Assembly (NCBI RefSeq): GCF_024584435.1
Contig: NZ_CP102197.1
Location: 2,108,001-2,172,000 of the forward strand
DNA: 64,000 nt
Source: Schaalia odontolytica
Lineage (GTDB): Bacteria; Actinomycetota; Actinomycetes; Actinomycetales; Actinomycetaceae
Direction of reading: 5' to 3'
Shown: positions 8,889 to 58,266 of the stretch, piece after piece
Position numbering within the stretch: the stretch's first letter is position 1
How the letters are laid out: each line of letters opens with the position of its first letter
The notes under the pieces: generated by a model
Seen by the model: the letters and a program-made list of their open reading frames with translations, nothing else
Database searches by the model: none
Told to the model about the DNA's origin: nothing
Program-made: the position numbers and the translations under genes

Positions 8889-8989
8889 TCTGGTGGGAGC
8901 GCGATCTCACGCAGAGACTTGTAGACGGCCTGCAACGGGTGTAGATTTACTTAAAAAGCACTGGTGATCTATCCCATCAAGGTCTTCGC

Positions 8990-11041
8990 ATGAATGCTCC
9001 TCACCGCGGACTGTGGCAGCGCCTCGGCGCCGCCGCCCTGTCCGGACTCATCATTACTGCCCTCGCCCCCAGCGCCCTCGCCGCCCCCGCAGGAGAACGC
9101 GCAACCCACGGCGACATGGAACCCAGCGCCGTCGCCGACTCGCAACCGGAGAGCGGTACGGGTGCGCAGGAAGAAACCGACAACACGGGCAGCGACAAGT
9201 CGGAACCCACAGGAACGGGCGCGCTCCCCGAGGCCTCGCCCGAGACGCAGGACGAACTCAACGCCACTGTCTACGAATTCCCCGGAACGGAAGGCCCCAC
9301 CCGGATCCACGTCCTCACGATCGGCTCCGCCGACGCCATCATGCTGGAATCGCGCGGCGTCTTCGCCATGGTCGACAGCGCCGAAGGAATCGGCGCCCCC
9401 GACGGAAGCGACCCGCGCTACCCCCTGCGCGAAGGAATCGTCCCCGCCAACGTCGGAGACACCAACCGGGTCCTGCGATACATGATCGACCACGGGGTAA
9501 CCTCCTCGAACCTGGCGTTCTACCTGGGCACCCACGCCCACTCCGACCACATCGACAACGCCGACGACATCATCAGGCGCTTCCGCCCCAAGGTCATCTT
9601 CACCCCCGAATACTCCGACCGCTGGATCACCAACCCCAACGGCCTCTGGGACAACCAGTGGGTCTACGACAACATGGTCGAGGCCGCCCACTGGGCCGAA
9701 GCAACCTACGGCGCCCAATTCGTCCAGCACGTCGACGGCTACAACACGCACGTCACGCTCGGCGACATGGACGTGCAGCTGATCCCCTTCGACCCCGAAG
9801 AAAAGTACAAGGTCAGGGGAACAACCGACGCCAACCTCATGGGATGGGGAGCGAAAGTCACCGCCTTCGGACGCACCGCCTTCCTGGCCGCCGACCTCAT
9901 GGACACCGAGGCCGACTGGGTCACGCACAACGGCTACGAGGCGCGCGTCGCGCGAGCCGTCGGAAAGGTCGACGTGCTCAAGGCCGGACACCACGGCCTG
10001 CGAAGCTCAAACTTCGCCCCCTTCATGGAGGCGCTGGACCCGTCCATGATCATCCAAACCGGCACCGAAGCCTATGCCGCCGACAGCCTCACCACCAGCG
10101 TCATCCACGGCCAGGCCACCTGGGCGCCCGCCGCCGAGCTATGGGACAACGGAAAAATCCCCTCCGTGATCGCAACCTTCACCTCCTCCGGGATCTCCTA
10201 CAACGACCTGACGAAGGCCTCGTGGGGACACGAATACGACGCGGAACAACCGCGAGCCTGGTGGTTCCAGGCGGGGCGCCCCGCGCCGACAACCGGATGG
10301 TGGCAAGGACGCAGCGGCAGCTGGTACTACTTCGCGGGCAAACCCTCCGCCGAAGCCTCCACGTGGGTCAGCGACAACGGCCAGTGGTACTGGATGGGCG
10401 CCACCGGAGCCATGGCCTCCTCCGAATGGATCTCGGACGGAAACGGCCTCTACTACATCGACTCGGCCGGACACCCCTCCTCCGCGAGCGGATGGACCCA
10501 GAACGACGGCGCCTGGTACTACCTGCGTGACGGCCGCGCACACACCGGGTGGCTCAACGACCGGGGAACCTGGTACCTCCTCGACCCCGCGAGCGGCCAA
10601 ATGGTTACCGGCTGGGGCCAAGTCGACGGCTCCTGGTACCACATGGACTCCTCCGGCCACATGACCACCGGCTGGATCAACGACGGCGGCGCGTGGTACT
10701 ACCTGCGAGGCAGCGGACAGATGGCCACCGGATGGCTGGCCAACGGAGGCTCCTGGTACTACCTGGGCGCGTCGGGCGCAATGCGCACCGGCTGGTTCCA
10801 GGACGCCGGCTCCTGGTACTACGCCGACCCCTCCGGCGCCATGGTCACCGGGTGGCTGGCCAGCGGAGGCTCCTGGTACTACCTCGGGGCCTCCGGCGCC
10901 ATGGTCACCGGGTGGCTCCCCAGCGCGGGCTCCTGGTACTACCTGAGCGAGGACGGAAGCATGGTGACCGGACGGGTCCTCATCGCAGGCCGATACTCGG
11001 ACTTCTCCGCGTCGGGCAGCTGGCTCGGCTACACCCCCTGA
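8990..11041 (+). CDS. Secreted metallo-beta-lactamase-fold protein with choline-binding-type repeats
   Basis: 683 residues. A signal peptide ends near ALAAPAG and is followed by an acidic/Ser-Thr linker to about residue 90. Residues 95-420 form an MBL-fold domain with HAHSDH at 182-187, AADLMD at about 300-305 and GHHG at 333-336, a complete metal-site set. From about 425 to 670 there are some ten tandem repeats of roughly 20 residues (pattern TGW-x-GSWYYL-x-SGAM), the cell-wall-binding/choline-binding repeat type. The same order of domains occurs in pneumococcal Pce (phosphorylcholine esterase), so a surface hydrolase acting on wall-linked choline or another phosphodiester is plausible. That activity is inferred. 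A hairpin follows the stop. Confidence 0.85.
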   Translation: MNAPHRGLWQRLGAAALSGLIITALAPSALAAPAGERATHGDMEPSAVADSQPESGTGAQEETDNTGSDKSEPTGTGALPEASPETQDELNATVYEFPGTEGPTRIHVLTIGSADAIMLESRGVFAMVDSAEGIGAPDGSDPRYPLREGIVPANVGDTNRVLRYMIDHGVTSSNLAFYLGTHAHSDHIDNADDIIRRFRPKVIFTPEYSDRWITNPNGLWDNQWVYDNMVEAAHWAEATYGAQFVQHVDGYNTHVTLGDMDVQLIPFDPEEKYKVRGTTDANLMGWGAKVTAFGRTAFLAADLMDTEADWVTHNGYEARVARAVGKVDVLKAGHHGLRSSNFAPFMEALDPSMIIQTGTEAYAADSLTTSVIHGQATWAPAAELWDNGKIPSVIATFTSSGISYNDLTKASWGHEYDAEQPRAWWFQAGRPAPTTGWWQGRSGSWYYFAGKPSAEASTWVSDNGQWYWMGATGAMASSEWISDGNGLYYIDSAGHPSSASGWTQNDGAWYYLRDGRAHTGWLNDRGTWYLLDPASGQMVTGWGQVDGSWYHMDSSGHMTTGWINDGGAWYYLRGSGQMATGWLANGGSWYYLGASGAMRTGWFQDAGSWYYADPSGAMVTGWLASGGSWYYLGASGAMVTGWLPSAGSWYYLSEDGSMVTGRVLIAGRYSDFSASGSWLGYTP

Positions 11042-11102
11042 CGCCTCGGCAACTTCCTCACACAAGCGCCGCCCACCGCGAATCAACGCAGGTGGGCGGC
11101 GC
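11015..11102 (+). repeat. 88-bp direct repeat, left copy
   Basis: Covers the last codons of the MBL/choline-binding-type gene (GSWLGYTP and stop) plus its terminator hairpin. It recurs at 12739-12826 with three mismatches that I can count, offset by 1724 bp. The two copies bracket the AAA ATPase and the truncated RloB-like gene. Confidence 0.9.
11066..11102 (+). terminator. Hairpin after the MBL/choline-binding-type gene
   Basis: Twelve-base arms GCGCCGCCCACC (11066-11077) and its exact complement at 11091-11102 enclose a 13-base loop. No T run follows. The duplicated copy near 12790-12826 has a damaged left arm. Confidence 0.6.
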
Positions 11103-11236
11103 CTACGTTGGGTGCTGTTTCGTGGGCCGGTAGGTTGAACGGAGGGCTCTGAGGTCCTGTCATGACGTAGGACACCTAGATTCCATTCCTGAAAAGATGT
11201 AGAATTTTTACAAATAAACGGGAAAGTGGGAGAGTG

Positions 11237-12553
11237 ATGCTGCGAGTCCTTCATCTCGACAACTGGAAGTCCTTTTCGGAGCCGGTCGACTTCACGATGA
11301 TTGCGGGCAAGGAGACTCGCCACGGCGAGACGCTCTACCTGGGTAGCAAGAACCGTGTGCTTCCCGTTGCCGCGATCTACGGCGCGAATGCGGCGGGAAA
11401 ATCCACTCTCCTCGACGCGCTCGCTCACCTGCAGGCCATGCTGCGCGAGCCGCGCAAGCGCGGGCAGCGCCTGCACTATCACCCACACCTTCTCTTCGGT
11501 GCCGACAAGCCCAGCGTCATCGGCGCCGAGATCGTTCTCGACGTCCAGGATGCGACATCGAATAGAAAGGCCATCGTCTACTACGAGGTGGCGTTCAACG
11601 CGGAACACGTCGTTGAGGAGTCTCTGTATCGCGTGCGCTCGGAAGACGAGCAGGCCGTCTTTGAACGCCACGGCCAGGAGATCTCTCTCTACGGCGATCT
11701 AGAAGACGACGTGGCGCTCGACGCCGTGTCGAAGACCGTTCAACCAAATCGTCTCTTCCTCGAAACCTGCTTCAACGCGGGACTCATTGACGATGAGCAA
11801 AGGCTACTCGGATCCGTGATCGCGTGGTTCCAACGTCTGACGATTGTTGGACGCGGATCGCGTTATATCCTCATGCCGCAGCAAATCGCGCATGACGAGG
11901 ACTTTCGTGCCGCAGTCGGGAAGGGGCTCACAGTCGCCGACACCGGTATTTCCGACATCTGCTTCACCGTTGTGCCTCGAGCCAAGGTACCCGCGGAAGA
12001 CAAAGTCCTAGATGAGGTCGAGAGCCAGCTCACCGACAACAGGTCCGAGGTGTACCTGAATGCGGAAAACGGAGCCGTCTTTCGCGCTCGGCTGGGCGCG
12101 GAGGGAGATGTTGTATACGAGCGCTTCGTAACCGTACACACGGGCGGAGGCAATGAGTTCCGTCTTCCTCTCGAACAGGAATCTGACGGGAGCATCCGTT
12201 ATCTGCATCTGCTCCCCATCCTGTATTGGGCGGGAACAAAACAGCGGTCGGGGGTGTACCTGATTGATGAACTTGAAGACTCGCTCCATCCCAAGCTCAC
12301 GGAGGAACTCATCCGGTTGTTCCTGGATGCGTCGGGGCCGGACGAGCAACGACAGCTCATCTTTACGACGCACGAGCTTCACCTCCTGCGTGTTGACCTT
12401 CTGCGGCGAGACGAGATTTGGCTGGTGGAGAAGAATGATCACCGGTCAGAACTCACGAGGCTCACGGACTTCCCTGCGTCCGACATCCGATCGGGCAGTG
12501 ACCTGCAGCGGATGTACATGTCGGGCCGCCTCGGCGGCATACCGCGGCTGTAG
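11237..12553 (+). CDS. AAA15-family ATPase (RloA/AbiLi-like)
   Basis: 438 residues from ATG 11237; GTG 11234 is adjacent and possible. Walker A is GANAAGKST at 49-57, the Walker B region is YLIDELEDSLHP, and FTTHE follows as a switch histidine, the layout of COG1106 (AAA15) ATPases. The next gene starts nine bases downstream and resembles the N-terminus of RloB. RloA/RloB and AbiLi/AbiLii pairs are known abortive-infection or restriction-linked genes, so an anti-phage role is likely for the original pair. Upstream DNA (about 11180-11225) and the gene itself look less G+C-rich than the neighbours, which fits transfer. With RloB broken, the current system is probably inactive or relies on another copy. 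Confidence 0.83.
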   Translation: MLRVLHLDNWKSFSEPVDFTMIAGKETRHGETLYLGSKNRVLPVAAIYGANAAGKSTLLDALAHLQAMLREPRKRGQRLHYHPHLLFGADKPSVIGAEIVLDVQDATSNRKAIVYYEVAFNAEHVVEESLYRVRSEDEQAVFERHGQEISLYGDLEDDVALDAVSKTVQPNRLFLETCFNAGLIDDEQRLLGSVIAWFQRLTIVGRGSRYILMPQQIAHDEDFRAAVGKGLTVADTGISDICFTVVPRAKVPAEDKVLDEVESQLTDNRSEVYLNAENGAVFRARLGAEGDVVYERFVTVHTGGGNEFRLPLEQESDGSIRYLHLLPILYWAGTKQRSGVYLIDELEDSLHPKLTEELIRLFLDASGPDEQRQLIFTTHELHLLRVDLLRRDEIWLVEKNDHRSELTRLTDFPASDIRSGSDLQRMYMSGRLGGIPRL

Positions 12554-12561
12554 GGGTTGTG

Positions 12562-12735
12562 ATGGGTAAGAAACGACAAGCTCCAACGAGGAAAACTTTG
12601 CGTGGGTCCAGGGGGCGCTCTCATAGCAAACAGGTGAAGCCACTTGTCGTTCTTGCAGTTGAAGGGGCGACAGAGAAGAAGTACTTGAACTTGATCGCAT
12701 GGCTCGACCAGGTTGTGCCGCGACGCTCCGAATAG
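12562..12735 (+). pseudogene. Truncated RloB-like protein (N-terminal remnant)
   Basis: ATG 12562 opens a 57-residue frame that stops at TAG 12733. It begins with a basic stretch (GKKRQAP, RGSRGRSHSK), then a hydrophobic strand VKPLVVLAVEGATEKKYL, which matches the start of the RloB/AbiLii TOPRIM-like fold (a beta strand ending in EG-x-TE-x-x-Y). Full-length RloB is about 200 residues, so most of the protein is missing. Four bases after the stop begins the 88-bp duplicate of the upstream gene's 3' end, so the truncation coincides with a recombination junction. Confidence 0.78.
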
Positions 12736-12738
12736 GAC

Positions 12739-12826
12739 GGCAGCTGGCTCGGCTACACCCCCTGACGCCTCGGCAACTTCCTCACGTAAGCGCGGCCCAC
12801 CGCGAATCAACGCAGGTGGGCGGCGC
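12739..12826 (+). repeat. 88-bp direct repeat, right copy
   Basis: A second copy of 11015-11102 starting four bases after the RloB remnant's stop. It still encodes GSWLGYTP and a stop in its own frame but has no gene upstream to belong to. Differences include 12786, 12787 and 12794. Confidence 0.9.
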
Positions 12827-49827: not shown

Positions 49828-51030
49828 CTAGAAGGCGGGGATGTAGATTTCGACGCGGCGGTTGAGGGCGCGTCCGGCGGGGTTGTCGCTTCCGTCGGGG
49901 TTTTCGTTGGGGGCCACGGGTTTGGTTTCGCCGTAGCCGGTGGCGTCGAGGGTTGCGCTGACGCCTTCCTTCTTCAGCTGTGTGGACACGGCGTTTGCTC
50001 GGTCTTCGGAGAGTTTTTGGTTGAAGGCTTCGTCGGAGACGGAGTCGGTGTGTCCGTAGATGTGGGCGGAGGGGACTTTGGCGTCGTTGAGGACGGTGGC
50101 GAGTGTGGAGAGGGTTTGGGCGGCGTCGGGTCGGATGTCGGACTTGCCGAAGTCGAAGAGGATCCCGTCCTCGAGGGTGATGAGCGTCCCGCAGGACTCC
50201 ACCGGCTTCAAAGACTCCACCGGCGGGAACTTGCCGAGCGGGGGAACCTTCTCGACCTTGGGGGCGTCCGTGATCGTCACGCCGTTCACCAATGCCGTCC
50301 CATCGCCATTGTTGTTTATTCTGAGGTTATCGCTGATGTACAAGCCGGACCCGTCACCGTTGTTGATGATTGATGCGCTCGGTGTCTTGTAGTTGCCCGA
50401 GCCGTCACCCTTGTTGTAAATCTTCTCATCGGTCTCAGAGTTGTCATAGAAGCCGCCTCCGTTGTCGCTCAGGGAAATACTAAGAGTTCTGGATCTGTAG
50501 GAACCGGTGCCATCCGAGTTGACGATGAGGTAGATGTAGGCATCGGAGTCGACGTAGGTTCCGCTGCCGTCACCGCCGTAGTTGATGCTGACAGTCCCTT
50601 CGCGGATAATCCCTCCGCCGTCGCCGTTGTTGACGACGACTCCGTTTCCTGTCGTGGTTGATGCTGAGCCGTCGCCGCTGAAGACCGTGCTGCCTGAGAT
50701 GAGGAGGTTGCCGTCGCACTTGGCGGGGGAGACTGTGATGCCCGGGACGGACTGGAGGGAGGAGGCGGTCTGGATGACGGCCTTGTCCGCGTTCGAGGCG
50801 AACACGTCAATGGAGGGGACGGTGAAGAGGGGGACCGGTGGGATCTCGCCGGGGCGATAGCCCGGCACCGTCGGCACGGTGTCGGTCGAGGCGGACGGGG
50901 AGGGAGTGGATGCTGCCGCGCTCGGCGAAGCCGCTGAATCGTGGGGTTTCGAGGCCGTGCAGGCACCCAGGGCAAGGGCGGTCGCGGCGAGGAGCGTGAG
51001 AACTGTCAGGGAGGAGCGCACGGTGTTCAT
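49828..51030 (-). CDS. OmpA-domain lipoprotein with GDGSG repeats, copy 1
   Basis: 400 residues from ATG 51030. Lipobox ALGAC, Ser/Pro linker, then a short conserved domain (PPVPLFTVPSIDVFA). Residues about 120-260 are some seven repeats of about 18-20 residues with an NNGDGSG-x-Y core. The C-terminal OmpA-like domain (ILFDFGKSDIRPDAA, IYGHTDSVSDEAFN, LSEDRANAVSTQLK) normally binds peptidoglycan. So it is a membrane-tethered, wall-binding protein. The OmpA-domain DNA is almost the same as in the next gene, while the repeats are diverged. Confidence 0.88.
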   Translation of the reverse strand: MNTVRSSLTVLTLLAATALALGACTASKPHDSAASPSAAASTPSPSASTDTVPTVPGYRPGEIPPVPLFTVPSIDVFASNADKAVIQTASSLQSVPGITVSPAKCDGNLLISGSTVFSGDGSASTTTGNGVVVNNGDGGGIIREGTVSINYGGDGSGTYVDSDAYIYLIVNSDGTGSYRSRTLSISLSDNGGGFYDNSETDEKIYNKGDGSGNYKTPSASIINNGDGSGLYISDNLRINNNGDGTALVNGVTITDAPKVEKVPPLGKFPPVESLKPVESCGTLITLEDGILFDFGKSDIRPDAAQTLSTLATVLNDAKVPSAHIYGHTDSVSDEAFNQKLSEDRANAVSTQLKKEGVSATLDATGYGETKPVAPNENPDGSDNPAGRALNRRVEIYIPAF

Positions 51031-51202: not shown

Positions 51203-52408
51203 TTAGAAGGCGGGGATGTAGATTTCGACGCGCCGGTTGAGGGCGCGTCCGGCGGGGTTGTCGCTTCCGTCGGGGTTTTCGTTGGGGGCTACGGGCTTCG
51301 TTTCGCCGTAGCCGGTTGCGTCGAGGGTTGCGCTGACGCCTTCCTTCTTCAGCTGTGTGGACACGGCGTTTGCTCGGTCTTCGGAGAGTTTTTGGTTGAA
51401 GGCTTCGTCGGAGACGGAGTCGGTGTGTCCGTAGATGTGGGCGGAGGGGACTTTGGCGTCGTTGAGGACGGTGGTGAGTGTGGAGAGGGTTTGGGCGGCG
51501 TCGGGTCGGATGTCGGACTTGCCGAAGTCGAACAGGATGCCGTCTTCGAGGGTGATGAGCGTCCCGCAGGACTCCACCGGCTTCAAAGACTCCACCGGCG
51601 GGAACTTCCCGAGCGCAGGGAGCGGCTCAACCCTGGGTGCGTCCGTGATCGTCACCCCGTTCACCAATGCCGTACCGTCACCATAGTTGATGATCGACAA
51701 TGTTCCATCGCTATAGCTGCCCGATCCATCTCTATTGTTATAGATTGTTGTTTTCCCGACCGCGTAGTTGCCCGAGCCATCGCCGTTGTTGACGATACTC
51801 TCGTCGGTCTCGGAGTTGGAGTAGTTGCCGTAGCCGCTGCTGTCAATGAAGATGCTGACCGGCCCGGCGGAGTATGTTCCGCCTCCGTCCGGCAGGATAA
51901 ACAGGGACACCTGGGTGTCGGAGTTGACGTAGGACCCGCTGCCGTCACCGCCGTAGATGATGGTGATAGGGCCTTCGACGATCGAGCCTGCGCCGTCTCC
52001 GTTGTTGATGACGAGTCCGTCTCCTGTCGTGGTTGATGCTGAGCCGTCGCCGCCGAAGACCGTGTTGCCCGAGATGAGGACGTTGCCGTCGCACTTGGCG
52101 GGGGAGACCGTGATGCCCGGGACGGACTGGAGGGATGAGGAGGCGGTCTGGATGACGGCCTTGTCCGCGTTCGAGGCGAACACATCCATGGAGGGGACGG
52201 TGAAGAGGGGGACCGGGGGAATCTCGCCGGGGCGATACCCCGGCACCGTCGGAACCGTATCGATGGAGGCGGAGGGGGAGGGGGTGGATGCAGCCGCGCT
52301 CGGCGAAGCAGCAGAATCCTGGGGATTCGAGGCCGCGCAGGCACCCAGGGCAAGGGCGGTCGCGGCGACGAGCGTGAGAACAGTCAGGGAGGAGCGCGCA
52401 GTATTCAT
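51203..52408 (-). CDS. OmpA-domain lipoprotein with GDGSG repeats, copy 2
   Basis: 401 residues from ATG 52408. Same plan as copy 1: lipobox ALGAC, SIDTVPTVPGYRPGEIPP, six to seven GDGSG-type repeats and an OmpA-like domain ending RRVEIYIPAF. Compared with copy 1 the repeat block has several replaced segments (for example SYVNSDTQVSLFILPDGGG). The two genes are in tandem, 172 bases apart, with separate signals. A duplication with later exchange in the middle is the simplest view. Confidence 0.88.
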   Translation of the reverse strand: MNTARSSLTVLTLVAATALALGACAASNPQDSAASPSAAASTPSPSASIDTVPTVPGYRPGEIPPVPLFTVPSMDVFASNADKAVIQTASSSLQSVPGITVSPAKCDGNVLISGNTVFGGDGSASTTTGDGLVINNGDGAGSIVEGPITIIYGGDGSGSYVNSDTQVSLFILPDGGGTYSAGPVSIFIDSSGYGNYSNSETDESIVNNGDGSGNYAVGKTTIYNNRDGSGSYSDGTLSIINYGDGTALVNGVTITDAPRVEPLPALGKFPPVESLKPVESCGTLITLEDGILFDFGKSDIRPDAAQTLSTLTTVLNDAKVPSAHIYGHTDSVSDEAFNQKLSEDRANAVSTQLKKEGVSATLDATGYGETKPVAPNENPDGSDNPAGRALNRRVEIYIPAF

Positions 52409-54182: not shown

Positions 54183-54882
54183 GGTGCGCGCGGTCCTCAC
54201 GGCCGCGGGGTCCGGATCTCGTCTCGGCTGCGAGTGCCCCAAAGCCCTCGTCGAATTGTCGGGTCGCCCCCTTGTGTGGTGGGCGGCCCGAGGCCTACGC
54301 GCCGGGGGAGTGGGCGCGATCGTCGTGACGGCCCCGGCCTCGTCGATCGAGGAGTTTCGCAGCGCCCTGTCCGATATCGACGACCTCACCGTCGTCGCCG
54401 GCTCCGATCGCTCGCGTCAGGAATCCGTGGCCCTCGGCCTGACTGCGCTCGGGAAGTGCGAGCCGGACTCGATCGTCCTCGTGCACGACGCGGCCCGGCC
54501 TTTGACGCCCCCCGAGGTGACGCGCCGCGTCATCGGCGCTGTGCGCGGCGGGGCGAGGGCCGTCATCCCCGTCCTTCCCGTCACCGACACTCTCAAGACC
54601 GTGGACGCCTCTGGCGCGGTCGTCGGCACGCCTCGCCGCTCCGACATGGTCGCCGTGCAGACTCCGCAGGGCTTCCGCTGGGACGTCCTCATTCGCGCGC
54701 ACGAGGCGGGCGCCTCCCTCGGTGCGGACGAGGCGGCTGCTGCCACGGACGACGCCGGCCTCGTCGAGGCCATCGGAGGTTCCGTTCAGACCGTTGCCGG
54801 AGATGAGCTCTCCCTGAAGGTCACGCGCCCCCTCGACCTGGCCATCGCGCGCCTCCTCGCCGACGCGGAGGCCCACCCCTAG
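54166..54882 (+). CDS. ispD: 2-C-methyl-D-erythritol 4-phosphate cytidylyltransferase
   Basis: 238 residues from ATG 54166, overlapping carD by 17 bases. Motif [23 protein letters not shown] (nucleotide loop and Lys), [22 protein letters not shown] and a C-terminal [12 protein letters not shown]. It makes CDP-methylerythritol in the MEP isoprenoid pathway. In Actinobacteria ispF usually follows; here the next gene is on the other strand and overlaps the ispD end by four bases, so ispF has been lost from or moved away from this spot. Confidence 0.92.
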
Positions 54883-55703
54883 AACCTGGGCGGAGCGCTG
54901 CCGCGCAGGATGGCTCGCACGACCGCGACGCCGTCCCTAGTGGCGAGCACGTCGCGCTGGTCGGCGTTGGCAACGAAGTAGCGCATGATGCGCTCCAGAG
55001 CCACAAAGGATAATCCCAGATCCGTCAAAAGCAGGCGAGAGATGCCCTTCTCGCCGTCTGCCTCCCAGTGAAGATCGGTGACCCCCGCGCGGGTCGTCCC
55101 CATGTAGGGCGCTGCAGCCCAGTCTGTCATGATAAGGCTGGGAGAAAGAGTTGGGTTCGCGACGATGACTCCGGCCGGGTGAAGAGCGATCCTCTGGCGT
55201 TTAAATTTCTCTGGTTGAGGGAAAAAGACGGTTGGTTGCTTGAGGAACAAGGAGCCGAGCATAAAGACTGTGCCGACGGATAGGGCAAATCCGTGTTTGG
55301 GACTCGATGAGAACGCAAGCGGAATGAGGGAAATGACAATACCGCTGATCCCCCACGCGAATCCGGCGGAACGTAGGCGCGCGACGGTGGTGTCCGCGAT
55401 GAGCTCGATCTCGCAGACCACGCGCTCGTCGTCGTACCTGGCGAAGACAATCCGTGGCTCACGCATGGGGGAGCGGGCATACGCGATGGCGGTGGGAACG
55501 AAGCAGATGAGAACGATAAGCGCAATGGCGAGGCTGTGGACCAGCATGCGTGGGGCGTTTCCCTGTGCCACGAGAACAATGAGGGGGATCGTAGCGGCGA
55601 TACCGAGGGCGTACAGGAGGACCGACACGCCCCATGCCCGCCGTCTGATGACGTCCGCCTGGTGGGGATCCAGCGGCCGTCTTACGAAGCGCAGAGCAAT
55701 CAT
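54879..55703 (-). CDS. Polytopic membrane protein, candidate immunity protein 2
   Basis: 274 residues from ATG 55703, overlapping the previous stop as ATGA. About four hydrophobic segments (SVLLYALGIAATIPLIVLVA, MLVHSLAIALIVLICFVPTAIAYA, GFAWGISGIVISLIPLAF, LSVGTVFMLGSLFL) and a cytoplasmic C-terminal part. Shares with the next gene a closing motif of the type ER-I-x-x-x-F ... DQRDVLATRDG, so the two are distant paralogs. No named family recognised. Last of five coupled genes; position after a channel-like WXG protein suggests immunity. Confidence 0.7.
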   Translation of the reverse strand: MIALRFVRRPLDPHQADVIRRRAWGVSVLLYALGIAATIPLIVLVAQGNAPRMLVHSLAIALIVLICFVPTAIAYARSPMREPRIVFARYDDERVVCEIELIADTTVARLRSAGFAWGISGIVISLIPLAFSSSPKHGFALSVGTVFMLGSLFLKQPTVFFPQPEKFKRQRIALHPAGVIVANPTLSPSLIMTDWAAAPYMGTTRAGVTDLHWEADGEKGISRLLLTDLGLSFVALERIMRYFVANADQRDVLATRDGVAVVRAILRGSAPPRF

Positions 55704-56488
55704 GCCGAGCCTCCCGCTGTGATGATCTCGGCGACGAGGTCGATGCCCCCTGGGGTCCCAAGGATCGCGCGGTCTTCAGGGTGGGTGTTGAAGTGATTAA
55801 TGATCCGCTTAAGCTGCCAGAATCGTAGGGGTAACCCCATCGTGTCGAGGCGCAACGTACCCTTGATGTCGCGAGCGGATACATGTAGCAGGTTGTAGCT
55901 GTCGTAGGTTGTCTTCACCTGCTTGATGCCCTCGATGCGCGGCTGCTTGTCCCACGGGATTGTGGTGGCGACATCGCTCAGGAGTGGATGAATTCCCAGG
56001 TGGGTGGGCGTGAGGGTGATGATGGGTGAGTGGTGGATGTTGGACGGCCGATATGGCGTTCGCCGGAGCAGAACATAACCCAAGAAAGAAAACGAGATGC
56101 CGAGGACGATGCCGCCTACGCTGTCGGGTCGAAGCACGTAGAAGACGATAGCCGCAGGTCCCCATGTCGCGACGGCGATCATGAACACGTAGCTGAGCCG
56201 AATGGCCGTGAGGGTGGGATAAACTGCCACCCCTCCCTCATCAATGTGAACCGTTGGGCCCCTGTGGTCGAGCCACAGTCGATGTAATCCGAGGCCGGTC
56301 ACCAGGAGCGTACCGAGCAATGAGTAGAACGTCAACAACATGGTGATGCTCATTGAGACGTATCTGCTCAGGAAAACACCGATGCCAGTGGACGCAGCAA
56401 GCACGCATGCAACCTTGATCCAATTGCTCGCTCTACTCTGATTCTCATCCACTTCAGACGTGTCGATCAGACGTGCCGCAGTCACCAC
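55700..56488 (-). CDS. Polytopic membrane protein, candidate immunity protein 1
   Basis: 262 residues from GTG 56488, overlapping the effector-like gene by seven bases. Four to five hydrophobic segments in the first 150 residues (VACVLAASTGIGVFLS, ITMLLTFYSLLGTLLVTGL, YVFMIAVATWGPAAIVFYVL, GIVLGISFSFLGYVLL). A soluble C-terminal part contains ITLTPTHLGIHPLL, IPWD and RIINHFNTHPEDRAILGTPGG, the last matching the following gene. Function not recognised. Membrane immunity to the upstream glycine-zipper protein is a testable idea. Confidence 0.7.
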   Translation of the reverse strand: MVTAARLIDTSEVDENQSRASNWIKVACVLAASTGIGVFLSRYVSMSITMLLTFYSLLGTLLVTGLGLHRLWLDHRGPTVHIDEGGVAVYPTLTAIRLSYVFMIAVATWGPAAIVFYVLRPDSVGGIVLGISFSFLGYVLLRRTPYRPSNIHHSPIITLTPTHLGIHPLLSDVATTIPWDKQPRIEGIKQVKTTYDSYNLLHVSARDIKGTLRLDTMGLPLRFWQLKRIINHFNTHPEDRAILGTPGGIDLVAEIITAGGSA

Positions 56489-57678
56489 GATTCTCCAAAC
56501 ATGTAGTAGGGGAGGTGCGCAACAACGGCTTCGGCCCGTTCCCGGTACTCAAGAGGAACTTCTTCGTAGATTGAATTCAACCCCTGCTCTGTTAGCAATG
56601 AAGCTCCGAGAGCGGCCCCCACGCCTGCTAATCCTCCTATCACTGTTCCCACTCCGGGGCTAATCGCTGTTCCGGCAAGCGCCCCCGCTGCAGCTTCGCT
56701 TACGAGTCCTCCTGCGACTGTGCCAGCGACAAGACCCGCTGTGCCGGTAACGGCCGTTTGTGCAGGCGTATCGGATGTGACGACTTCGTAGCCTAAGCTT
56801 GCGACACCCACGGCAGTAGCGGCTTTAGCTAGTTTCGAACCTATTCCACGCATGCTTCCTAAACTATCGTCACTTGCGGAATTCAGCTTCTTAAGTGCAG
56901 CCTCAGAAATTGCTGCTGACAGGAGTTTCGAGCCTCTAGATTGGTCGGCAAGTGCTGACAAAGATAGAGTGTCGATCATAGAAGCGTAAGAAGCTGTTGC
57001 ACTATCCCATGCAGTTACTGTCGCATCGGGAAGATATTGCCAAGGACTTCGAGTGTACTCAAGGAGACCGCTCCCGACTGCGCGAGCAAAAACGAGCGCT
57101 GCGCATTCCTGTTGCACCGCACGCAGGTTGTTGAGTGTCCATTGTTCAAGATCATCCCGGACCTCCTGAACCCGAGTAGCTAGCGCATTGAAGATCTCGT
57201 GTTGACGTAGAAGAGAAAATTTTCCGTCCGCACTTCCCATCGCAACGCCAATTGTCGGCTGTTCATTAGCTTCCGGGTTTGCATAACATGTGTCAATTGT
57301 TGGTTCTGGAATGGGTGCAGGGCGCAATATGTCATACTTATCGACGATACGAAGACCTACATACTCTGCCTTTCCGCGAATTGTCTCCATGTCCCTGTAG
57401 TGATAATCGAGTTGCTGAGCATAAGCGCGCAGAACCTCGTAGGCAGAGTAGATTCTTTGCTCGAACTGACTGACCTTTGAGCCCATGTTGACCGTTGCGT
57501 CATCATATCGAGATGCCGCTTCGCCCGACCATGAATAAGAATTTACACGTAGCTTGCTTTTGAACTGACTCGAAAGCCCCTCAATACACTCGTAGATTTC
57601 ATATATCTGCGCCGCTGCTGCGCGGATGCTCTCTGGATCACCGTAGATGCGAGTGTCGATTGTTTCTTCGTCCGTCAT
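56482..57678 (-). CDS. WXG-domain protein with glycine-zipper C-terminus (putative type VII toxin)
   Basis: 398 residues from ATG 57678, overlapping the preceding stop as ATGA. Residues 10-110 are a helix-turn-helix WXG100-like domain with WSG at 50-52 (NSYSWSGEAASRYDD) and a long second helix. Middle residues about 120-310 are helical, no known domain. Residues about 318-375 are a Gly/Ala-rich hydrophobic stretch with G-x3-G spacing (GTAGLVAGTVAGG, GTVIGGLAGVGAALGA), the pattern of pore-forming glycine zippers. No signal peptide. N-terminal secretion domain plus membrane-active C-terminus resembles Staphylococcus TspA-like LXG toxins in plan, not in detectable sequence. Clearly AT-richer than flanking genes. 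Confidence 0.75.
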   Translation of the reverse strand: MTDEETIDTRIYGDPESIRAAAAQIYEIYECIEGLSSQFKSKLRVNSYSWSGEAASRYDDATVNMGSKVSQFEQRIYSAYEVLRAYAQQLDYHYRDMETIRGKAEYVGLRIVDKYDILRPAPIPEPTIDTCYANPEANEQPTIGVAMGSADGKFSLLRQHEIFNALATRVQEVRDDLEQWTLNNLRAVQQECAALVFARAVGSGLLEYTRSPWQYLPDATVTAWDSATASYASMIDTLSLSALADQSRGSKLLSAAISEAALKKLNSASDDSLGSMRGIGSKLAKAATAVGVASLGYEVVTSDTPAQTAVTGTAGLVAGTVAGGLVSEAAAGALAGTAISPGVGTVIGGLAGVGAALGASLLTEQGLNSIYEEVPLEYRERAEAVVAHLPYYMFGESW

Positions 57679-57980
57679 GACTGCGCCTGTTCTGCGATGG
57701 TGGCGAATGCTGCCGCAGCTTCTTCCTCGTTTTGTTCAAATGCAGAGATAAGTTCTGACAGATTGTCTCTTGTGTCGCGTAGCATCAGCGTTAGAGTGCT
57801 CGCGTCTGCCGATAATGATCCCAACATCTCGGCAATAATGAGTGTTCCAATCCCTCCGTCTACCTCGGTAGGCATTTTTGGAGCGAGGTTCTCGAGACCA
57901 GCTGCTGCTATTTCGTATGATTGCTTCAGATCCTTGAGATAGTCGCTGGTACTTACTTTAAGGTCGGCGCTCACTTGCAC
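57675..57980 (-). CDS. Small helical ESAT-6-like partner protein
   Basis: 101 residues from GTG 57980 (GTG 57974 is an alternative). All-helical prediction: SADLKVSTSDYLKDLKQSYE, a central loop (PKMPTEVDGG), then LTLMLRDTRDNLSELISAFE and an acidic/Ala end. Size and position directly before a WXG-domain protein match the small chaperone-like helpers (Lap/WXG) that pair with LXG-type toxins. It lacks a strict WxG. Overlaps its upstream neighbour by 23 bases and the effector gene by four. Confidence 0.72.
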   Translation of the reverse strand: MQVSADLKVSTSDYLKDLKQSYEIAAAGLENLAPKMPTEVDGGIGTLIIAEMLGSLSADASTLTLMLRDTRDNLSELISAFEQNEEEAAAAFATIAEQAQS

Positions 57981-58266
57981 TCATATTTCTTACTAAGTCG
58001 CTCACGAAATGATCGACAACTAGGTGTGTGTATCCCGTTTCTTCTTTAACCAGTGAGAGTCGGGAAGTTTCGATAACAGCCCAAGGTTGCTCATCGCCGA
58101 GGGCGTCAAGGAGCCTGTCGAGGGCAGTGTAGGCAAGAAGTATCTTCTCGTGCTCTGTGCCTTCGGCAATCGACACTTGGACCATCCCCTCATTATCCAG
58201 CCATACGGGGATATAGAGGTAAGGAGGTGCTACATCGGGGTGGGTGTTAACGGACATCTCTGCCAT
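57958..58266 (-). CDS. SAV_915/SseB-like small protein
   Basis: 102 residues; ATG 58266, with ATG 58257 as alternative. Sequence YLYIPVWLDNEGMVQVSIAEG, a helix with ALDRLLDALG, then QPWAVIETSRL resembles the SAV_915/SseB N-terminal fold, which is frequent next to secretion genes of Actinobacteria. First gene of the five-gene overlapping run, so its promoter lies between 58267 and the divergent MFS gene at 58421. Function unknown; the assignment rests on pattern only. Confidence 0.62.
   Translation of the reverse strand: MAEMSVNTHPDVAPPYLYIPVWLDNEGMVQVSIAEGTEHEKILLAYTALDRLLDALGDEQPWAVIETSRLSLVKEETGYTHLVVDHFVSDLVRNMSASERRP

Follow-up and report, generated by a model that had tools for sequence, protein, structure and literature searches.

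A five-gene cassette of Schaalia odontolytica as a likely type VII secretion effector-immunity system built from families other than those of its staphylococcal counterparts

In the literature found, membrane-acting type VII toxins accompanied by immunity genes have been worked out in Bacillota. In Staphylococcus aureus, EsxX is described with the partners LapX3/4, ExiAB, and ExiCD (PMC12744356), and the membrane-acting type VII toxin TspA is countered by membrane immunity proteins in the TspA-TsaI system (PMC7456083), with tsaI occurring in tandem copies (PMC9484751). The TelE-TipE system of Streptococcus gallolyticus comprises an LXG toxin and immunity provided by a DUF5085 protein (PMC10434224; PMC12744356), and the PE-PPE proteins with their EspG chaperone are mycobacterial (PMC11217815, PMC10653861). 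Searches of an open-access library brought up nothing relevant to such systems in Schaalia, or to SAV_915 in connection with WXG100 or SseB. Here, we consider five overlapping genes, P1 to P5, in a stretch of 64,000 nucleotides of Schaalia odontolytica (the window: assembly GCF_024584435.1, contig NZ_CP102197.1, positions 2,108,001-2,172,000 of the forward strand, coordinates below being window positions), whose genome forms one contig of 2.39 Mb. They encode a SAV_915-domain protein (P1), a small protein (P2), a putative effector (P3), and two related membrane proteins (P4 and P5), and they likely constitute a type VII secretion effector-immunity cassette serving in the contest between related actinobacteria. 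By analogy, the best reading is that this cassette would work like staphylococcal EsxX or TspA, yet is built from other families.

The resemblance to EsxX extends over several components: a helical N-terminus, which in P3 is predicted to serve secretion, a Gly-zipper-like C-terminus, and a small helical partner are found on both sides, ExiAB and the Laps accompany the toxin only, as P1 and P2 do, and ExiCD form a polytopic membrane immunity pair that also occurs as toxin-less orphans, as P4 and P5 do (PMC12744356). However, EsxX is an LXG protein with two Laps, whereas a single WXG/PPE-like domain goes with one small partner here, and SAV_915 stands in place of ExiAB in an actinobacterial host. 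With TelE, whose C-terminal glycine zipper is required for toxicity, the cassette shares a zipper-like C-terminus, but TelE differs by its LXG family and its DUF5085 immunity (PMC12744356). The PE-PPE-EspG system differs in that immunity-like membrane genes are present here and that P1 is far smaller than EspG. Finally, a membrane-acting toxin followed by tandem membrane immunity copies is reminiscent of TspA-TsaI, although in another host phylum. At the family level, none of these systems gives a match: at E values up to 1, DUF5085, DUF5079, and DUF5080 of Pfam do not match P1, P2, P4, or P5, the Pfam LXG family gives no match, the TsaI-type immunity family (DUF443) does not match P4 or P5, and the PE, PPE, and EspG families do not match P1, P2, or P3. 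A preliminary description of this DNA had proposed an actinobacterial counterpart of LXG/WXG toxins such as TspA; no LXG or TspA-type family is matched.

The gene order P1, P2, P3, P4-family membrane protein is repeated elsewhere in the genus (Schaalia/Pauljensenia), including a second cassette at 1.84 Mb in the same genome, and P3 as a single query found matches in 10 of 58 relatives, all of this genus. A P3 profile of 12 rows and 385 positions matched 17 of the 35 genus genomes (genomes are designated by G numbers, loci by L numbers): 11 carry a full-length P3, i.e. at least 350 of the 385 positions in one frame, G013 carries it in two pieces, and five have partial or weak matches only (G003, G009, G012, G024, and G034). 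P1 is present in 11 of the 35 genomes, which are the same 11 with a one-frame P3. The P4 family is found in 17, six of which have no full-length P3 (among them G009, at E 4e-4 only). Of the 12 P3 genes aligned, 10 have a P4-family gene as their neighbour, one (L029) has another hydrophobic family, and one (L026) has neither. This distribution parallels that of the secretion ATPase EccC, a homolog of which (E at most 1e-50) occurs in 25 of the 35 genomes: the P4 family is present in 17/25 EccC-positive versus 0/10 EccC-negative genomes (Fisher P 3e-4) and P1 in 11/25 versus 0/10 (P 0.015), both values being uncorrected for relatedness, and all 17 genomes with P3 matches are EccC-positive, none of the 10 EccC-negative genomes having one. 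In the genome of the window, the EccC-like ATPase has three FtsK/SpoIIIE domains and adjoins subtilases, a kinase, and a WXG100 protein.

The membrane proteins also occur without the putative toxin at the site of the cassette itself, between ispD and an MFS gene that is found in all 35 genus genomes. Among the 31 ispD-MFS sites examined (those of all genomes but G001, G002, G015, and G030), the full cassette is present at one, that of the window; P4-family genes stand without P1-P3 at seven (G034, G020, G023, G029, G012, G011, and G010); ispD lies directly beside the MFS gene at 22, the two protein matches being 87-675 bases apart; and at the remaining one (G004) carD is the nearest match, neither cassette nor ispD being detected. 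Since ispD adjoins the MFS gene at 22 of the 31 sites, the cassette is not a fixed core locus of the relatives, an arrangement that the preliminary description had named as contrary to its proposal. The same description placed the insertion where ispF normally follows ispD; in fact, ispF lies about 5 kb past the MFS gene, just outside the window end, and ispD-MFS adjacency is common in the genus, so that a displacement of ispF is ruled out.

In G034, this site bears a scar. The promoter region and the first ~47 bp of P1 (88% identity over 195 columns) are fused to the last ~85 bp of P3 (76%), about 1.65 kb being gone, and P4 and P5 follow intact and read through. This P1/P3 scar places P1-P3 at the ispD site in an ancestor of G034, with a later loss in which P4-P5 were kept. 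The putative toxin was thus deleted and its guards retained in G034, the one of the seven immunity-only sites for which this history can be read. Relatives that keep the guards alone point to warfare between bacteria, and immunity-like genes without a toxin, a hallmark of polymorphic toxin systems, are found at the seven ispD sites, with the scar of G034 in addition. The different distribution of the two halves, P1 and P2 being bound to the toxin and P4 and P5 occurring also without it, is the main functional argument for an effector-immunity cassette, one that proceeds by analogy.

Beyond the genus, 296 genomes drawn from the class were searched. The P3 profile matches 41 of them, many across the N-terminal WXG part only, as opposed to the similar divergence of the N- and C-parts within the genus, and the P3 homologs have WXG100-type N-termini. 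P1 matches 15 genomes, its own included. All seven strong P1 matches (E at most 3e-15), in six genomes of other orders, lie directly upstream of P2-P3, so that the P1-P2-P3 part of the cassette recurs outside the genus. Among the eight weaker P1 matches, seven (L162-L168) have no P2, P3, or P4 within ~1.5 kb on either side and the eighth (L161) has a weak P3-like open reading frame (ORF) nearby. Since P1 is confined in the genus to the 11 genomes with full-length P3 and precedes P2-P3 at all seven strong outside matches, SAV_915 is a regular member of the cassette and not an added one, as first supposed. A P4-like membrane gene follows P3 at three of the seven outside loci (L083, L084, and L088; hhalign probabilities 93, 80, and 96 in single comparisons). 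Of six outside P3 homologs scanned, L091 and L089 (the latter not among the seven loci) weakly match a glycine-zipper model, below cut-off, and that of L091 matches the hydrophobic part of RTX toxins, also below cut-off. This spread across the class, together with the orphan P4-family genes of six genomes, which would be explained by neighbours that use P3 for attack, argues against the idea that the cassette is aimed at animal host cells, with P4 and P5 guarding the producer's own membrane. Some bacteria do have type VII effectors that act on hosts, and the named relatives include host-associated species, but such a target is very improbable here.

The N-terminal part of P3 is close to the WXG100 type. 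It matches Pfam WXG100 with an E value of 7e-6 and 26.7 bits, slightly short of the 27.3 cut-off, and ESAT-6 and EsxA chains head its matches in a profile search of solved structures. The WSG-turn domain noticed in the preliminary description is upheld: a WxG is present in all 12 aligned P3 rows, the model is a WXG hairpin with its turn at WSG (residues 50-52), and a CFP10-ESAT6 chain superposes on it with a root-mean-square deviation of 1.6 over 88. PPE41 is among the best fold matches, level with BAR domains. Behind the hairpin stands YHYRD, an instance of the YxxxD/E motif known as a type VII secretion signal; 9 of the 12 rows have such a motif within residues 60-130, and in 8 it stands at the aligned position of YHYRD. 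The WXG domain, the YxxxD/E motif, and the EccC link all indicate export, which makes a phage-defence or chromosomal toxin-antitoxin unit working inside the cell extremely improbable, however well the compact operon and the patchy distribution might suit one. As to defence systems, the sole PADLOC match, Cas11e at E 0.03, was rejected as weak and chance-like. At the other end of P3, the G-x3-G pattern previously noted is borne out in part: the last 130 residues contain seven GxxxG against 3.2 in same-residue shuffles (P 0.02). For the longer zipper pattern, however, the count is six against 4.1 (P 0.21), and because of the latter value the spacing is just mildly beyond what Gly/Ala richness leads to expect and was dropped as significant evidence by itself. 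The Gly/Ala-rich stretch of residues 300-372 also matches the glycine-zipper lipoprotein SlyB, at E 0.04 for the whole profile.

The two small proteins encoded upstream are probable partners of P3. P1 reaches 49.6 bits against NCBIfam NF042914 (SAV_915; cut-off 40) but 13.5 bits against SseB, under the cut-off of 21, so that of the "SAV_915/SseB-like" label given at first only the former half stands. Its model, built from 4 sequences (that of P3 from 5), consists of one small alpha/beta domain with a predicted local distance difference test score (pLDDT) of 69, and no EspG chain is among its fold matches. P1 is probably a soluble chaperone or a cytoplasmic neutraliser of P3. P2 stays below the cut-off of every Pfam and NCBIfam family, but its profile matches solved helical proteins, mostly coiled coils and designed bundles, EsxA included (E 0.01), and across 10 loci its pairwise identities correlate with the identities of the N-terminal part of P3 (rho 0.88). 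P2 probably pairs, as a hairpin, with the WXG domain of P3.

The mutual match of P4 and P5 is weak (phmmer E 6e-5 and 9e-5), and both are polytopic (Table 1), in agreement with their initial description as related membrane proteins; no Pfam or NCBIfam family matches either over cut-off. In a tree, P4 joins its same-site orthologs with supports of 98/94, and P5 its own with 100/100. At the ispD site of five relatives with full orthologs of both (G034, G010, G011, G020, and G023), P4 is 38-45% and P5 44-48% identical to that of the window, the P4 of G011 being in two pieces of 42 and 61% identity; in the same relatives, the neighbouring ispD is 81-90% and the MFS protein 88-89% identical (87 and 75% for the two pieces of the G010 MFS protein). 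Such fast divergence amid well-kept neighbours is what would be expected of toxin-immunity pairs. The ispD-site P4 of G011 is interrupted by a 449-aa ORF (L047 8451-10665), probably an insertion element as judged by eye. In L024 (G007), P4-family genes and fragments of P3 follow one another, in-frame stops interrupting some of them, and the whole resembles a decayed array. L029 (G002) has, by eye, four tandem copies of the other hydrophobic family (309-314 aa; 8986-12775) after P1-P2-P3, in the usual place of P4, the one copy scanned having no Pfam match.

Several observations weigh against the effector-immunity reading. No P4-like gene was recognised beside P3 at four of the seven outside loci (L085, L086, L087, and L091). 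The fold matches of the helical models are unspecific, BAR domains tying with PPE41, and the zipper spacing is weak in the P3 of the window and absent in L026. The C-terminus of the P3 model has a pLDDT below 50, so that a pore fold is not seen in it. In addition, the mean identity within the genus is 0.38 for the C-part of P3 and 0.41 for the N-part; the C-part is thus not more variable, unlike what a swapped toxin tip of the classic kind would show. Many PPE proteins are not toxins, and the PPE-like fold matches, as well as the four loci devoid of a recognised membrane partner, would suit a non-toxic type VII substrate, i.e. a PPE/Esp-like surface, channel, or nutrient protein for which P4 and P5 would be membrane partners in anchoring or assembly. 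This alternative is nevertheless unlikely, in that the P4 family outlives P1-P3 at seven ispD sites and after the G034 deletion, which is unexpected for a partner, and that tandem divergent P4-family copies fit immunity arrays better.

Under the preferred effector-immunity reading, P2 would pair with the WXG/PPE-like N-terminus of P3 to form a helical bundle, which, carrying the YxxxD/E signal, would be exported by the EccC machine. By analogy with the EspG/EsaE chaperones or ExiB, P1 may hold or shield P3 in the cytoplasm before export. Once exported, the Gly-rich C-terminus of P3 would enter a neighbouring cell's membrane and injure that cell, most likely by depolarisation, and P4 and P5, seated in the membrane, would protect the producer and the kin holding them. 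Of the type VII toxin-immunity proposal first made, the recurrence, the EccC link, the immunity-only loci, and the scar now speak in favour, whereas a toxic, secreted, and depolarising P3 is what we infer. If this reading is true, actinobacteria gain a testable effector-immunity cassette, the unnamed SAV_915 family a probable role, and PE-PPE-like export partners a link to antibacterial toxins.

A further gene may bear on self-protection. It encodes 49 residues, comprising KKR, one transmembrane (TM) helix, and then a P3-type tail (LPLEYR...HPLYYLGLGxW), and is found in nine full copies in eight genomes (twice in G000, then in G012, G020, G023, G024, G026, G029, and G034) and partially in G010; the cassette of the window lacks it. 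Over its last ~30 residues, it shares 52-59% identity with the P3 tails of G000, G020, G023, and G026 (E 3e-5 to 2e-4). A P4-family gene directly precedes it in 9/9 cases, ending at or within ~20 bases of its start, and the two occur without full-length P3 in G012, G024, G029, and G034. Its pN/pS is 0.39 when pooled and ranges from 0 to 0.35 within the closest five copies, and G034 and G023 differ by eight silent and no replacement changes. The same 440-residue gene lies downstream of six of the nine copies, and for this reason the site of the small gene in G034 and G029 is common to genomes that have P3 there. The gene would seem to belong with immunity rather than with attack. A tentative and rather doubtful proposal is that this membrane peptide represents a third kind of immunity, in which it mimics the toxin's C-terminal tail and blocks toxin assembly or docking; if true, self-protection of this kind would be new. 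Alternatively, it could be a toxin tip occurring as an orphan, or could serve the immunity protein as a signal.

The five minus-strand genes overlap successively by 23, 4, 7, and 4 bases, as first described and in agreement with the ORF list and the translations, and the features are collected in Table 1. The P1 start codon stands just behind TATGCT, making a leaderless start possible, and the DNA upstream of P1 is common to relatives with P4 as the first gene. The cassette is, as previously noted, AT-richer than its flanks, with a G+C content of 0.51 for P1, 0.50 for P2, 0.52 for P3, and 0.57 for P4 versus 0.65 outside. The same drop marks related cassettes in the closest genomes (L017, L019, L020, and L022), where P1-P3 have 0.44-0.54 versus 0.64-0.66 outside; it is slight in L018 and L021 (0.64-0.67 versus 0.69).

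Table 1. Features of the cassette in window coordinates, followed by copies of the 49-residue gene in locus coordinates.
Feature	Description	Position	Strand	Basis
P1	SAV_915-domain protein, 102 aa	57958..58266	-	NCBIfam NF042914 match
P2	Small protein, 101 aa	57675..57980	-	Helical profile matches; family-less
P3	Probable type VII effector of 398 aa with a WXG domain and a linker, then a hydrophobic, Gly/Ala-rich C-terminus and a conserved tail	56482..57678	-	
P3 helical hairpin	Residues 8-107, WSG turn at residues 50-52	57358..57657	-	
YHYRD	YxxxD/E-type candidate secretion signal behind the WXG hairpin, P3 residues 92-96	57391..57405	-	
P3 hydrophobic stretch	Gly/Ala-rich, residues 300-372, one hydropathy TM segment (343-361)	56563..56781	-	
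P3 conserved C-terminal tail	VPLEYRER...HLPYY...W, residues 374-398	56485..56559	-	
P4	Membrane protein, 262 aa, soluble C-terminal domain; probable immunity protein	55700..56488	-	4 hydropathy TM segments
P5	Divergent P4 paralog, 274 aa; probable second immunity protein	54879..55703	-	3 hydropathy TM segments
Promoter-like stretch	Ends in TATGCT, which stands 6 nt ahead of the P1 start codon	58267..58290	-	Seen by eye in the sequence
49-residue gene	Copies at other loci	L017 6337-6486, 11298-11447; L019 10611-10760; L020 10835-10984; L022 6017-6166		

Some minor observations concern other cassettes and the remainder of the window. In the second cassette of the same genome (L017 7654-7949), P1 is split over two frames, into ORFs of 43 and 63 aa, and this cassette may therefore be decaying. 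A 196-aa ORF in L018 (6443-7033) begins in a P4-like manner, continues as the second half of the adjacent P3, and resembles an orphan toxin tip. L131 (contig JVKM01000014.1), titled Xylanimonas cellulosilytica 352_XCEL, carries the cassette of G023, its label being probably wrong. In the window, adjacent near-duplicate lipoprotein-like genes lie at 49828-51030 and 51203-52408, with an OmpA domain in the first.

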